Virus record (IMG/VR): IMGVR_UViG_3300042882_000311
Span: 1 to 34,064 of that record
From: a virus
Strand: one strand, 5' to 3'
DNA length: 34,064 nucleotides
Shown: piece by piece, positions 29,022 through 34,064 of the stretch
How the letters are laid out: each line of letters begins with the position of its first letter
Position numbering within the stretch: the first letter of the stretch is position 1
Notes under the pieces: model-generated
The model's database searches: none
The model's input: only the letters and a program-made list of their open reading frames with translations
What the model was told of the DNA's origin: nothing
Translations under genes and position numbers: made by a program

Positions 29022-29029
29022 TACATTTG
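29022..29029 (+). promoter_or_regulatory. -7 type box before RNA element A
   Basis: TACATTTG is a perfect TAnnTTTG box. No convincing TTG lies about 20 bases upstream, so activity may be weak or need an activator. Expected transcription begins near 29034, at the base of the first hairpin. Confidence 0.6.
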
Positions 29030-29033
29030 AATT

Positions 29034-29126
29034 CGCAATCATTTGGTGGAATGATTACACTTAAAACTTTTTATATAATCCTTTTGGGAGTAGATGCCAC
29101 CACATCGAAACCAAAAGGATTTTTTT
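29034..29126 (+). ncRNA. Structured RNA element A (kissing-hairpin leader/terminator)
   Basis: Hairpin 1 is AATCATT (29037-29043)/AATGATT (29050-29056), seven pairs with loop TGGTGG (29044-29049). Hairpin 2 is an 11-pair terminator stem (29077-29087/29111-29121) with a purine-rich internal loop, an upper stem GATG/CATC (29093-29096/29103-29106) and apical loop CCACCA (29097-29102), followed by T. The two loops are exact complements, predicting a kissing interaction. Element B repeats this architecture with different loop bases. It ends 20 bases before the ABC-GNAT start, so it is either a ~90-nt RNA or that gene's attenuator. Confidence 0.75.
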
Positions 29127-29146
29127 ATACAAAAAATTAAAAATTT

Positions 29147-30322
29147 ATGAAATACATCGAAAAAACAAATGTAATATTAAACGATAAATATACTGAATAT
29201 ATTTATGAAGCGTTTGATATTCAAAACAAAGAAAGTACAAGTGTTAAAATTCCTATTAATTTTGGAGAATGTAAAACATTCGATTGGAATATAGGTGTGA
29301 TTTATGGTGGTTCAGGAACTGGTAAAACTACATTATTAAAAGAATTTGGTGATTTAACTCCATCTGTTTTTGATATGAAAAAACCATTAATTAGTAATTT
29401 TGATTGGTTAGAACCAAAAGAAGCTACATTTTTATTATCTGCTATGGGGCTTGCTTCTGTCCCAACTTGGTTAAGACCGTTTGCTGCATTATCAAACGGA
29501 GAACAATATCGAGCAGAACTCGCTTACAAAGTCGCTAAAGCAAAAGACGGCGATACTATTTTAATTGATGAGTATACGTCAGTAGTTGACAGAGATGTTG
29601 CTAAAGCAATGTCTAACGCATTACAAAAATATATCAGGAGAAACAATAAAAGAATAATTTTATCATCTTGTCATTTCGATATTATGGAATGGTTGTTACC
29701 AGATTGGACTTACTCACCATTGAAAGGTCGTGTAGAAAAGCACGACTATCGAAGGCAAAGCCGCCCAAAAATTGAGCTATCGGTATTTCGATGTAGATAT
29801 GAAACTTGGAAAATATTCAAACAATATCATTATTTAACTGAAGATCTAAATAAGGCTTGTATTTGTTATGTGACTACAATAAATGATAAACCGGTTTGTT
29901 TTAATGCTGTTTTGCCTTTTCCTCACGGTAATATAAAAAACGGTTATAGAATGTCAAGGATAGTAGTACTTCCTGATTATCAAGGTTTAGGCGTTGGCGG
30001 TAAGATAACCGATTACATCGCATCCTTGTATGCTAAGAAAGGTAGAACGATGTATGTCAAAACATCAAACCCAGCTTTGTGGGCTCATCTGGATAAATCA
30101 CCAAATTGGCATTTAACTACAGAAGTGACAAAAGAACAATTAAATTCTGAATGGATGGAAAAAATGCAAACTGCTGATAAATCAGGTATGTTGAAATACA
30201 GGAACGCAATTACAAAATCTTATAAATGGATTGGTGAAAAATCGCAAGACGATACTGATATAATTTTATTTAAAAATGAAGTTTACAAACACGTTGCTCA
30301 AAATCAAATATCAATGTTTTAA
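29147..30322 (+). CDS. ABC-ATPase fused to GNAT (Mom-like) domain
   Basis: The product has 391 residues. Residues 1-200 are a soluble ABC-type ATPase: Walker A GGSGTGKTT (54-62), signature LSNGEQYRAELA (115-126), Walker B DTILIDEYTS (136-145) and switch His in SSCH (176). Residues 210-370 are a GNAT fold, with RIVVLPDYQGLGVGGK (271-286) as the cofactor loop. ABC-GNAT fusions occur in phages and resemble the GNAT-fold Mu Mom adenine-modifying protein; the substrate here is inferred. It ends in QNQISMF, a sliding-clamp-binding type motif. Element A sits directly upstream. Confidence 0.8.
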   Translation: MKYIEKTNVILNDKYTEYIYEAFDIQNKESTSVKIPINFGECKTFDWNIGVIYGGSGTGKTTLLKEFGDLTPSVFDMKKPLISNFDWLEPKEATFLLSAMGLASVPTWLRPFAALSNGEQYRAELAYKVAKAKDGDTILIDEYTSVVDRDVAKAMSNALQKYIRRNNKRIILSSCHFDIMEWLLPDWTYSPLKGRVEKHDYRRQSRPKIELSVFRCRYETWKIFKQYHYLTEDLNKACICYVTTINDKPVCFNAVLPFPHGNIKNGYRMSRIVVLPDYQGLGVGGKITDYIASLYAKKGRTMYVKTSNPALWAHLDKSPNWHLTTEVTKEQLNSEWMEKMQTADKSGMLKYRNAITKSYKWIGEKSQDDTDIILFKNEVYKHVAQNQISMF

Positions 30323-30331
30323 AATAATATT

Positions 30332-30499
30332 ATGAAAATACAAAAATCAATATTTAAAGGCACCTTAATTCAAATTGGTAAATTAAATTATGTTAATGCT
30401 CAATATATTTCTAAAACTTTAAATGATAATGATTCTAAAATCAATTATTCAAAATCAATATCTATTAATTCAACTAAATATTTTTTATTATGCAAATAG
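30332..30499 (+). CDS. Small hypothetical protein, 55 aa
   Basis: A 55-residue ORF (MKIQKSIFKGTLIQIGKLNY), Ser/Asn/Lys-rich, starting ten bases after the ABC-GNAT gene with an ATTATG context. It overlaps the next ORF by ten bases. Function unknown. Confidence 0.5.
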   Translation: MKIQKSIFKGTLIQIGKLNYVNAQYISKTLNDNDSKINYSKSISINSTKYFLLCK

Positions 30500-30669
30500 G
30501 AGAAAAATTTACTTTTTACAGTAACGGACAACATCGAAAAGCATTATTTTTAGAAACATTCAATGATAAAATAGTTGCTATTGTTTGTGATGACATAAAA
30601 TCTCAAGGGATAAAAATTGAAATAGACGAAAGTCAAATTATAGACGAAAGTCAAATTTCAATGTTTTAA
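30490..30669 (+). CDS. Small protein ending in clamp-binding QISMF motif, 59 aa
   Basis: A 59-residue ORF. A small beta-like domain (GEKFTFYSNGQHRKALFLET) is followed by IDESQI IDESQI SMF, made by an 18-bp tandem repeat. The final QISMF matches the bacterial sliding-clamp motif QL(S/D)LF and repeats the C-terminus of the ABC-GNAT protein two genes upstream. It may bind or block the host clamp. Role inferred. Confidence 0.65.
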   Translation: MQIGEKFTFYSNGQHRKALFLETFNDKIVAIVCDDIKSQGIKIEIDESQIIDESQISMF

Positions 30670-30671
30670 TT

Positions 30672-30893
30672 ATGGATCCAAACAAAATAATTTACGAAAA
30701 TTTAAAAACGACAGACGAAAAAAGAATTTACGCTTTAAAACATATCACAGATGAAAAATTTATAAAATTATTAGAATGGGACAAGATAAGTTTATCAACC
30801 ATCAATATAGCTTTTTATTCATTTCTAGGAGAAGAAATAGAATTAAGAGGAAACAGCAGTAAACTTATGCAAAAAGAACAAAGAAAATTTTAA
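30672..30893 (+). CDS. Hypothetical protein, 73 aa
   Basis: The product has 73 residues, helical (ENLKTTDEKRIYALKHITDE), with no recognised motif. Starts two bases after the QISMF gene with an ATTATG context, so probably the same operon. Function unknown. Confidence 0.6.
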   Translation: MDPNKIIYENLKTTDEKRIYALKHITDEKFIKLLEWDKISLSTINIAFYSFLGEEIELRGNSSKLMQKEQRKF

Positions 30894-30908
30894 TCAATAA
30901 TTTATAAA

Positions 30909-31037
30909 ATGGAAGAATTTAGATTTAAAAATGATAATGATGAATTTCATATTATCATAGAAGCGAAATCTTTTGAAGAAGCTAAAGAACAGTTTAATAA
31001 AAAATATAAAACTAAAAATGTCATTATTACAAATTAA
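30909..31037 (+). CDS. Small hypothetical protein, 42 aa
   Basis: A 42-residue ORF (MEEFRFKNDNDEFHIIIEAK) with a beta-hairpin-like start and a charged helix. It closes the module; its stop lies five bases before the promoter box of RNA element B. Function unknown. Confidence 0.5.
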   Translation: MEEFRFKNDNDEFHIIIEAKSFEEAKEQFNKKYKTKNVIITN

Positions 31038-31042
31038 TTTTA

Positions 31043-31050
31043 TATATTTG
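31043..31050 (+). promoter_or_regulatory. -7 type box before RNA element B
   Basis: TATATTTG is a perfect TAnnTTTG box followed by AAT, as in element A. Like A, it lacks a clear TTG about 20 bases upstream. Expected start near 31055, at the base of hairpin 1. Confidence 0.6.
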
Positions 31051-31054
31051 AATC

Positions 31055-31134
31055 ATAATACGTCGCAGGTATTTAGAAAATATTTTATAACCTTATGGGG
31101 ATTCGCTGCGACCGATGAACCATAAGGTTTTTTT
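31055..31134 (+). ncRNA. Structured RNA element B (kissing-hairpin leader/terminator)
   Basis: Hairpin 1 is AATAC (31057-31061)/GTATT (31069-31073), loop GTCGCAG (31062-31068). Hairpin 2 is a ten-pair terminator stem AACCTTATGG (31089-31098)/CCATAAGGTT (31120-31129), upper stem TCG/CGA (31103-31105/31113-31115) and apical loop CTGCGAC (31106-31112), then T. The two loops are exact seven-base complements. All four stems and both loops differ in sequence from element A yet pair, which supports the fold by covariation. It ends 11 bases before the DUF6291-like start. Confidence 0.75.
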
Positions 31135-31145
31135 ATTTTTATATT

Positions 31146-31793
31146 ATGGCAGAAAACAAAAAATCTTTTTTACTTTATGTGGATTTAATACACACAGTAA
31201 ATCAATTACCGGATGATAAAGCTGGACAACTTTTTAAACATATACTTTTATATGTCAATGATAAAAACCCGATAACAGACGATTTAATAACTAAAATTTC
31301 TTTTGAACCAATTAAACAACAATTAAAAAGAGATTTAAATAAATATGAAAATATTTGTGATAGAAATTCCAACAATGGCAAACTGGGAGGCAGACCTAAA
31401 AACCCAAATAAACCCAAAAAACCCATTGGGTTATTTGGTAACCCAAATAAACCCAGGAAAGCCGATAGTGATAGTGAGAGTGAGAATGAGAGTGAGAATG
31501 ATATCTTATTAAGAGAAAAAAAAGATTTTTATAATTTTTCAAATGAATTATTTAATGATCCGCAATGGAATGAAAGCATCCGCAGATTAAATAAAATAAA
31601 TTCCGATGAACTTTTAAAATATTTAGATAAATTTGATTTGAAAATGAAAAATGAATTAGACAACAAAACAAACAAAAAAGAATACGCTGGGCATTTTTCA
31701 AGATGGTTGAGTATTGAAAAAGAAAAAAGTATTTTAAAAAACGGAAAAGAAAAATTAACTGGGGCTCAGGCCTTTTTAAAACAATTTGAATAA
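31146..31793 (+). CDS. DUF6291-like replication-region protein
   Basis: The product has 215 residues. KKSFLLYVDLIHTVNQLPDD, KAGQLFKHILLYVNDKNP and FEPIKQQLKRDLNKYENICD, then NGKLGGRPK, match DUF6291-type proteins in Bacteroidota phage replication modules. An acidic SDSESENESEND linker (low complexity) separates a helical C-terminus with GHFSRWLSIEKEKS. It may be a replisome organiser. Coupled to the next gene by TAATG. Confidence 0.7.
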   Translation: MAENKKSFLLYVDLIHTVNQLPDDKAGQLFKHILLYVNDKNPITDDLITKISFEPIKQQLKRDLNKYENICDRNSNNGKLGGRPKNPNKPKKPIGLFGNPNKPRKADSDSESENESENDILLREKKDFYNFSNELFNDPQWNESIRRLNKINSDELLKYLDKFDLKMKNELDNKTNKKEYAGHFSRWLSIEKEKSILKNGKEKLTGAQAFLKQFE

Positions 31794-32536
31794 TGAATGA
31801 ATTAATCCAATATCAAAAACCGGAATTAATTATTTTGGCTGAAAAAACAAAATTAAGGAATTACGATGTTGAAAAAAGAAAAATGTTTGCGGTTAAATTA
31901 GTTGCAAAGCTTTTAAATTTACTCGGTGTAAATGACGGCAAAACAGAGCAACATAATGCTTTGGCAATTCACATTTGCGATTTTTACGGTCACGTTTCTT
32001 TTGAGCAAATTGATAAAGCTTTTGGTTTATTTGTTTTAGGGATTTTTAAAACAAAACCTTTCCAACAATTAAACGCCGTTGTATTTGGTCAAGTAATGGC
32101 TGATTTTTCAGATTACGAAAAAGAGCAAACTAAAATTTATAAATTAAAATTACAAGAATTTAAAAATCAAGCCAAACCTATGGAACAAACTGAAAAAGAT
32201 GCGTTAATGGAAACAGCCATCGAAAACGCAATCGAGCAATATAAACGAACCGGAGATATTGAACTCGCACCCAGCAAATACGATTGGTTAGATTCAAAAG
32301 GTAAAATGCGGGGAAATCGCACAGCCGCCGAATGGGACGTTTTAAAAAGAAATCAATATAATTCTGTCAAAAACAGACTAATCGAAGTCTACACAAAGGC
32401 TAAGGCGTCTAGCGTCGAAGAAAAAGCGGAATTTAAAAACGCCATCATTGAATTGCAACAAACTAAAAGCACCAAAGCAATAAATCAAAGCAAATACGAA
32501 CTATTGGAAAATTATTTTAATTCACTTGTAAGTTAA
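31793..32536 (+). CDS. Putative replication protein / helicase-loader candidate
   Basis: The product has 247 residues, helical and charged: LAIHICDFYGHVSFEQIDKA, PFQQLNAVVFGQVMADFSDY and KYDWLDSKGKM. No Walker motif is visible, so it is not an AAA+ loader; lambda P-type loaders also lack one. Position between the DUF6291-like and DnaA-like genes suggests a replication partner. Family not recognised with confidence. Confidence 0.5.
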   Translation: MNELIQYQKPELIILAEKTKLRNYDVEKRKMFAVKLVAKLLNLLGVNDGKTEQHNALAIHICDFYGHVSFEQIDKAFGLFVLGIFKTKPFQQLNAVVFGQVMADFSDYEKEQTKIYKLKLQEFKNQAKPMEQTEKDALMETAIENAIEQYKRTGDIELAPSKYDWLDSKGKMRGNRTAAEWDVLKRNQYNSVKNRLIEVYTKAKASSVEEKAEFKNAIIELQQTKSTKAINQSKYELLENYFNSLVS

Positions 32537-32539
32537 ATT

Positions 32540-32926
32540 ATGAAATACCACATCCAACTAACCGACATCAAAAAAGACATCGAGGAAATATTCGAAATCC
32601 CAGACATCGCAGACAAATACAGAGGGAGGGAACTCGTTATGAGCAGATACTTATATTACATTTTAAGCAAACAATTTACATTTGAAAGTTTAGGAAAAAT
32701 AGGGAAAACCGTAGGCAGGGACCATTCATCAGTTATACATGGCCTAAACAAATATGAGGAGCTAATAAAATATTTTGATGGCCATAAATACGCTCAAGGG
32801 ATCCTGGAAAAGAAATACAAGGAAATGGACAATGACCGGAAAGCTATCGAGTTTTTGACTTCATATAACAGCGAAGTAAAAACCACATTTATAACCAAAA
32901 GACAAATGGAGCTCCAAGTAAACTAA
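32540..32926 (+). CDS. Free-standing DnaA domain-IV-like origin-binding protein
   Basis: The product has 128 residues. ELVMSRYLYYILSKQFTFES and LGKIGKTVGRDHSSVIHGLN reproduce the DnaA C-terminal domain, with the GRDHSSVIHG signature at 59-68. There is no AAA+ ATPase domain. It may bind a DnaA-box-like phage origin or compete with host DnaA. It ends the replication block. Confidence 0.8.
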   Translation: MKYHIQLTDIKKDIEEIFEIPDIADKYRGRELVMSRYLYYILSKQFTFESLGKIGKTVGRDHSSVIHGLNKYEELIKYFDGHKYAQGILEKKYKEMDNDRKAIEFLTSYNSEVKTTFITKRQMELQVN

Positions 32927-33829: not shown

Positions 33830-34064
33830 ATGCTGAAAGACATCGCTAAATATCACAAGGAATGGATCAAAATGGTTAAATCAATGGGCGGCGGTGATTA
33901 CTCGGAAGATGTGGTACAGGAAATGTACATAAAAATTAATAAATACGCCACTCCTGATAAAATTTATGTAAATGGAAAAATTAATAAATTTTATATTTAT
34001 TTGACTTTACGTTCAATTACTTTCCAAGAATTCAGGAACAAAGAAAACATCAAAAAGGAATCAA
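33830..34064 (+). CDS. Sigma-70-like factor, N-terminal part
   Basis: This is the 5' part of the gene that continues at 1-417 (position 33938 equals position 1). The first 36 codons, MLKDIAKYHKEWIKMVKSMG and GGDYSEDVVQEMYIKI, carry the sigma region 2 pattern (acidic ED-VQE helix). Full length is 174 residues. The ATG at 33830 is chosen because region 2 begins right behind it. An internal ATG at codon 15 would remove part of that helix. Confidence 0.8.
   Translation, partial: MLKDIAKYHKEWIKMVKSMGGGDYSEDVVQEMYIKINKYATPDKIYVNGKINKFYIYLTLRSITFQEFRNKENIKKES
33938..34064. repeat. Terminal direct repeat, right copy
   Basis: Identical to 1-127. See the left copy for interpretation. Genes in the overlap are counted once in a circular map. 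Confidence 0.95.

Follow-up and report, generated by a model that had tools for sequence, protein, structure and literature searches.

Two short segments of a viral genome record, in each of which the loop of one hairpin is the complement of the loop of a neighbouring terminator, raise the question of what kind of RNA they encode: a chance pairing, a pair of independent small RNAs, or leaders that belong to the genes behind them. Both segments, here called E1 and E2, lie in the window, that is, the whole 34,064-nucleotide stretch of DNA analysed (IMG/VR record IMGVR_UViG_3300042882_000311). The preliminary description had given them a shared anatomy of promoter box, 5' hairpin, AU-rich linker and terminator hairpin, and this anatomy is present in the sequence and agrees with the predicted folds; the complementarity it had reported, of the entire hairpin-1 loop with the entire apical loop of the terminator, is exact in E1 and in E2. 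The box, TAnnTTTG, is the Bacteroidota promoter consensus at -7 (PMC7366714). The parts of E1 and the gene behind it are as follows.

29022..29029, + strand: promoter -7 box, sequence TACATTTG, of the TAnnTTTG consensus
29037..29056, + strand: hairpin 1, stem AATCATT/AATGATT, loop TGGTGG at 29044-29049
29057..29076, + strand: AU-rich linker, 20 nt
29077..29121, + strand: whole terminator hairpin, lower stem of 11 bp
29077-29087 with 29111-29121, + strand: lower stem arms AATCCTTTTGG/CCAAAAGGATT
Interior of the terminator, + strand: internal loop GAGTA/GAAA, upper stem GATG/CATC
29097-29102, + strand: apical loop CCACCA, complement of 29044-29049
29120..29126, + strand: U-tract, T7
29147..30322, + strand: first gene after E1, with its ATG at 29147, an ABC-type ATPase fused to a GNAT acetyltransferase (phrog_11143)

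E2 has the same layout, with different stems and loops.

31043..31050, + strand: promoter -7 box, sequence TATATTTG
31057..31073, + strand: hairpin 1, stem AATAC/GTATT, loop GTCGCAG at 31062-31068
31074..31088, + strand: AU-rich linker, 15 nt
31089..31129, + strand: whole terminator hairpin, lower stem of 10 bp
31089-31098 with 31120-31129, + strand: lower stem arms AACCTTATGG/CCATAAGGTT
Interior of the terminator, + strand: internal loop GGAT/TGAA, upper stem TCG/CGA
31106-31112, + strand: apical loop CTGCGAC, complement of 31062-31068
31128..31134, + strand: U-tract, T7
31146..31793, + strand: first gene after E2, a DUF6291 + DUF7833 protein in the replication-initiator position
31793..32926, + strand: a phrog_26016 protein and then a DnaA C-terminal-domain protein, in the same module as the DUF6291 gene

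Each element thus combines a TAnnTTTG box, a complement of at least 6 nt between leader and hairpin loop, and a start codon within 40 nt, and among all TAnnTTTG boxes of the window those of E1 and E2 are the only ones followed by a candidate that has both a U-tract and, immediately after it, a start codon. When the two regions were dinucleotide-shuffled, the full E1 architecture arose in 2 of 40,000 shuffles and the full E2 architecture in 0 of 40,000. Cross-pairing between E1 and E2 is limited to 5 nt or less. The supposition that no Rfam family has this layout was borne out, as none matched E1 or E2 at E<=1; over the window, Rfam 15 at that threshold gave only a chance mir-355 match lying elsewhere, and on the relatives described below (19 loci at the gathering threshold, 6 at E<=1) it gave only DUF805b, off the elements. 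This DUF805b cis-regulatory motif (RF02914) occurs at L099:3531-3563 and L423:815-849, loci that carry kissing leaders and include that of the cultured Flavobacterium phage lillamy9-6. A 29-codon open reading frame (29051-29140) begins with an ATG inside hairpin 1 of E1 and extends across the terminator; it is probably there by chance, as it is not conserved in other subfamilies. A leader peptide was considered and rejected: E1 has this short frame (ATG at 29051), but inspection revealed no conserved open reading frame in subfamilies A or B or in E2. At the level of the whole record, positions 33830-34063 (the record end) repeat the protein read at 1-417 (NKYATPDKIYVNGKINKFYIYLTLRS...), which makes it probable that the genome is complete and has a direct terminal repeat or is circularly permuted.

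The case for the structure had been staked on homologues in which both loops stay complementary, and many were found, with clear covariation. Relatives of both downstream proteins were taken from IMG/VR and scanned for terminators with a TAnnTTTG box ahead. In all, approximately 90 sequence-unlike relatives occur in Bacteroidota phage contigs; 'unlike' clusters were defined by shared 8-mers, without phylogeny, and their independence may be incomplete. Once clustered by sequence, the promoter-anchored terminators numbered 67, of which 25 had a complement of at least 7 nt between leader and terminator loop, against 1.3 when leaders were swapped between clusters. Where the terminator stood near the start codon of a DUF6291 gene, 27 of 30 unlike leaders had a complement of at least 6 nt (3.0 expected). 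Two further initiator families, neither of them used to set up the scan, supplied a fresh set of 160 loci with 67 matches against 0.6 in shuffles; the matches fell into 33 unlike clusters that partly overlap the earlier ones. The kissing words themselves are hypervariable, with 54 distinct words in 59 leaders. A U-tract is present in 46 of these 59; the other 13 have no recognisable U-tract and some of them are likely chance matches. Kissing leaders also occur in cultured phages, namely Cellulophaga phi13:2 and phi19:3, Flavobacterium elemoA, lillamy9-6 and hattifnatt9-1, and Olleya Harreka_1. The RNA is a class spread across Bacteroidota phages and is not peculiar to the window genome.

Within the class, the internal loops recur with different kissing words. 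The E1-type loop AGUA/GAA, which we take to be a bulged-G or sarcin-ricin-like signature, is found with other words in L117, L110, L143, L135, L161, L188, L227, L244 and L459, and in the cultured Olleya phage Harreka_1 it accompanies the kissing pair GTGGTGG/CCACCAC. The E2-type loop GGAU/UGAA is shared by L029 and L193, and most of subfamily B has it in reversed strand order, UGAA/GGAU. A MAFFT alignment (A4) of the E1/E2 type was poor. The leaders of L110 and L143, both before DUF6291, are near-identical in their flanks and lower stem and wholly different in the upper stem of the terminator and on either side of its loop, suggesting that the apical part evolves very fast or is exchanged. In hattifnatt9-1 the kissing leader preceding the replication genes reads GTGAGACG, and a second kissing leader, GTCGTCG (L424:1097), lies directly ahead of an endonuclease gene annotated PF07463. 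At the DUF6291-like gene of proteobacterial phages (L427 and L428) no element is present. The models R1 and R2 found no match in 395 Bacteroidota genomes each, which is weak evidence of absence from bacterial chromosomes, as these are narrow subfamily models and R1 misses even E1 and E2.

Covariation was assessed in two subfamilies by counting structure pairs against shuffled and slid controls, in alignments that include related sequences. The 7-bp kissing helix of subfamily A (20 sequences) is paired throughout (100%), and 6 of its 7 pairs show two-sided change. In subfamily B (17 sequences) pairing of the kissing helix holds in 98.5% of cells, 7 of its 8 pairs show two-sided change, and RNAalifold chose it unprompted as the consensus structure. 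With all helices of subfamily B counted, 94.7% of cells are paired and two-sided changes number 94 cells, against 28.8 in shuffles; when the partner was slid by 1-3 columns, pairing fell to 35-48%. Subfamily A had been gathered with a score that includes kissing, and this is covered by a recognition test independent of it: pattern scans that extended A and B made no use of the kissing word, and leaders recognised in this way keep the word in 21 of 21 cases in subfamily A (by script) and in all 11 true leaders of subfamily B (nine by script, L399 and L402 by eye). The preliminary description had spoken of compensatory change inside one genome, a claim that has only two copies behind it; between genomes, compensatory change is what the alignments show. 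One explanation for the data would be chance complementarity in AT-rich terminators, and some weak matches of the scan in coding sequence are indeed chance (about 12.5 of 99 at score 22). As an account of the class, however, this is barely credible: it is refuted by the covariation in A and B, by the swapped and shuffled controls and by the 2 and 0 of 40,000 shuffles for E1 and E2. We regard the two-hairpin kissing structure as near certain.

The position of the elements bears on what they are for. In 95% of 74 kissing leaders, no more than 30 nt separate the end of the element from a same-strand start codon (of an open reading frame of at least 60 amino acids), with a median of 18 nt, whereas only 13% of 1,137 other intergenic terminators of the same loci lie so close. 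The distance from hairpin end to start codon is 0-26 nt in nearly all leaders, whether or not a U-tract is present, and the elements have the place of a cis leader, after the promoter and ahead of the start codon on the strand of the gene. DUF6291 is the first gene behind 40 of 65 leaders and among the first four behind 49 of 65, which is partly due to fetching through DUF6291, as half of the loci were obtained in this way and the gene context is biased accordingly. In Flavobacterium elemo phages, a relative of the DUF6291 + DUF7833 protein carries the annotation 'replication protein'. Several other leaders head operons with a DnaD-like, Lin1244_N, DUF1376-like or HTH-type initiator followed by a DnaB helicase or Toprim primase; as these initiators belong to different families, the class marks replication operons whichever initiator is present. 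Behind E1, the ABC-GNAT gene of phrog_11143 (window 29147-30322) is common in phages of many phyla and stands within the replication module in several relatives; in L054 and L070 it is the third gene of an initiator/DnaB operon. The idea that E1 is an ancestral regulator of ABC-GNAT was rejected, as no element lies immediately before relatives of the gene. Tight same-strand spacing and position at replication operons lead us to read the elements as cis-acting leaders, and the case for this role is strong. The two RNAs of the preliminary description are thus right in structure and better framed as cis-acting 5' leaders near start codons, heading replication operons, than as free-standing molecules.

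We propose that the kissing of the two loops tunes the terminator in cis and so sets readthrough into the gene behind it, a role that comparative sequence evidence makes probable though far from assured. Transcription would start a few bases past TAnnTTTG, placing hairpin 1 at or near the 5' end of the RNA. As the terminator hairpin emerges from RNA polymerase, its apical loop would kiss the hairpin-1 loop intramolecularly through 6-9 base pairs, with the linker of about 15-20 nt bridging the lower stem of the terminator. The distance from the kissing word to the terminator base is mostly 21-25 nt, about half of the unlike leaders falling in this range, and such clustering is expected if the linker must span the terminator stem; the correlation of linker length with terminator height is weakly negative (rho -0.32), and nothing is drawn from it. 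E1 and E2 have the stem and following U-tract (T7 each) of an intrinsic terminator, termination itself being predicted. As the terminator lies directly before the start codon, with no space for a second promoter, expression from the leader promoter needs readthrough, and the kissing complex would determine how much of it reaches the downstream gene. Most likely, kissing would stabilise the terminator until a phage or host factor relieves it. A conventional antiterminator was rejected, since leader complementarity to both terminator arms is at the shuffled level (5' arm, 3.69 versus 3.79 in the null; 3' arm, 4.19 versus 4.13). As there is no antiterminator and kissing is itself compatible with the terminator stem, an effect on termination is an assumption of the model; we infer this effect, as we do its direction, the co-transcriptional timing of kissing and the signal. 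Leaders that lack a U-tract may be weaker terminators or translational versions, and termination is perhaps not the whole story.

That last point touches on another reading, in which hairpin 2 and its loop govern ribosome access to the start codon, and the hairpin-1 loop and the start region are competitors for the hairpin-2 loop, the terminator being secondary or ancestral. The close approach of the hairpin to the start codon (0-26 nt in nearly all leaders) would fit this. In addition, L086, L221, L258 and L187 repeat the kissing word exactly, over 7-9 nt, right before the start codon, which gives the hairpin-2 loop two possible partners, and a loop complement of at least 7 nt around the start was found in 5 leaders against 1.0 expected. 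The repeated words (L086:4778-4904, L221:2870-3001, L187:2867 and L258:139) resemble a decoy of the ribosome-binding region, and the repeat before the start covaries between L086 (AAACACCAC) and L221 (AAACACTAC). These repeats support the view that some members, at least, are translational variants. As an account of the whole class we consider translational control unlikely, as the repeat occurs in only about 4 of 59 leaders and is absent from E1 and E2, and the U-tract kept in 46 of 59 is unneeded for control of translation.

The remaining readings have the RNA acting in trans. With its own promoter box and terminator, each element could yield a compact and stable RNA of about 85-95 nt with targets in the host or the phage, in which case its closeness to a start codon would be incidental; a terminated leader would accumulate anyway, whereas independent small-RNA genes would not be expected to show either the 95% versus 13% difference in start-codon spacing or the association with replication operons, and the hypervariable loops (54 words in 59 leaders) leave no common target visible. 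We therefore hold free-standing small RNAs to be rather improbable. Alternatively, a terminated leader might kiss the nascent leader of another genome copy, providing copy-number feedback or exclusion of related phages. Loops that are hypervariable yet always complementary, at the head of replication-initiation operons, are what such self-recognition would predict, as is the lack of cross-pairing beyond 5 nt between E1 and E2, and the loops of ColE1 RNAI set plasmid incompatibility likewise (PMC9458437). Both partners are present in one molecule, however, the word mostly standing 21-25 nt away from the base of the terminator, and pairing in cis should win; to this self-recognition we allow a slim chance. 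The same slim chance applies to its extension, in which the loops would form an identity code, each phage replication operon having its own trans-acting kissing pair as the phage counterpart of plasmid incompatibility.

Tuning of a terminator in cis, the reading we prefer, has partial parallels among known RNAs. The put RNA of HK022, an antitermination leader, likewise opens an early phage transcript with two hairpins; unlike in the kissing leaders, the second of these is not a U-tract terminator, and put is not known to be defined by loop-loop complementarity. The pRNA of phi29 is a phage RNA with complementary loops, like the kissing leaders, but there the loops join one molecule to another and the function is DNA packaging, whereas kissing leaders head replication operons. 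ColE1 RNAI/RNAII (with Rom/Rop) has in common with them fully complementary, variable loops of about 7 nt and a link to replication control; its partner is an antisense RNA at the plasmid origin, whereas here both loops lie in one sense RNA ahead of a phage protein-coding operon, without an antisense partner. Bacteroidota phage terminators in general share the GC-containing stem and U-tract, but the other terminators of the same loci are mostly far from start codons. Attenuators and riboswitches, including the terminator-embedded HMP-PP/thiS aptamer (PMC6478431), likewise have a promoter, a structured leader and an intrinsic terminator directly before the start codon; they differ in that the kissing leaders have no alternative antiterminator pairing, the contact being that of a 5' hairpin loop with the terminator's own apical loop, and in that the loops vary widely in sequence, which a ligand-binding aptamer does not. 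The class thus resembles terminator leaders and ColE1 loops, yet lacks a defining feature of each, the antiterminator of the former and the antisense partner of the latter.

In the open-access literature we found no report of kissing loops with such phage terminators, and none on DUF6291; to our knowledge, RNA-level replication control in Bacteroidota phages has been little studied. The kissing leaders appear to be a class of structured RNA that is widespread, strongly supported by comparison and so far undescribed, and pairing that is always kept despite variation of the loops points to an RNA switch of viral gene expression that is likewise undescribed. A 5' hairpin that kisses the terminator's own loop would be a new way of tuning an intrinsic terminator, and the hypervariable loops could supply orthogonal regulatory parts for Bacteroidota.
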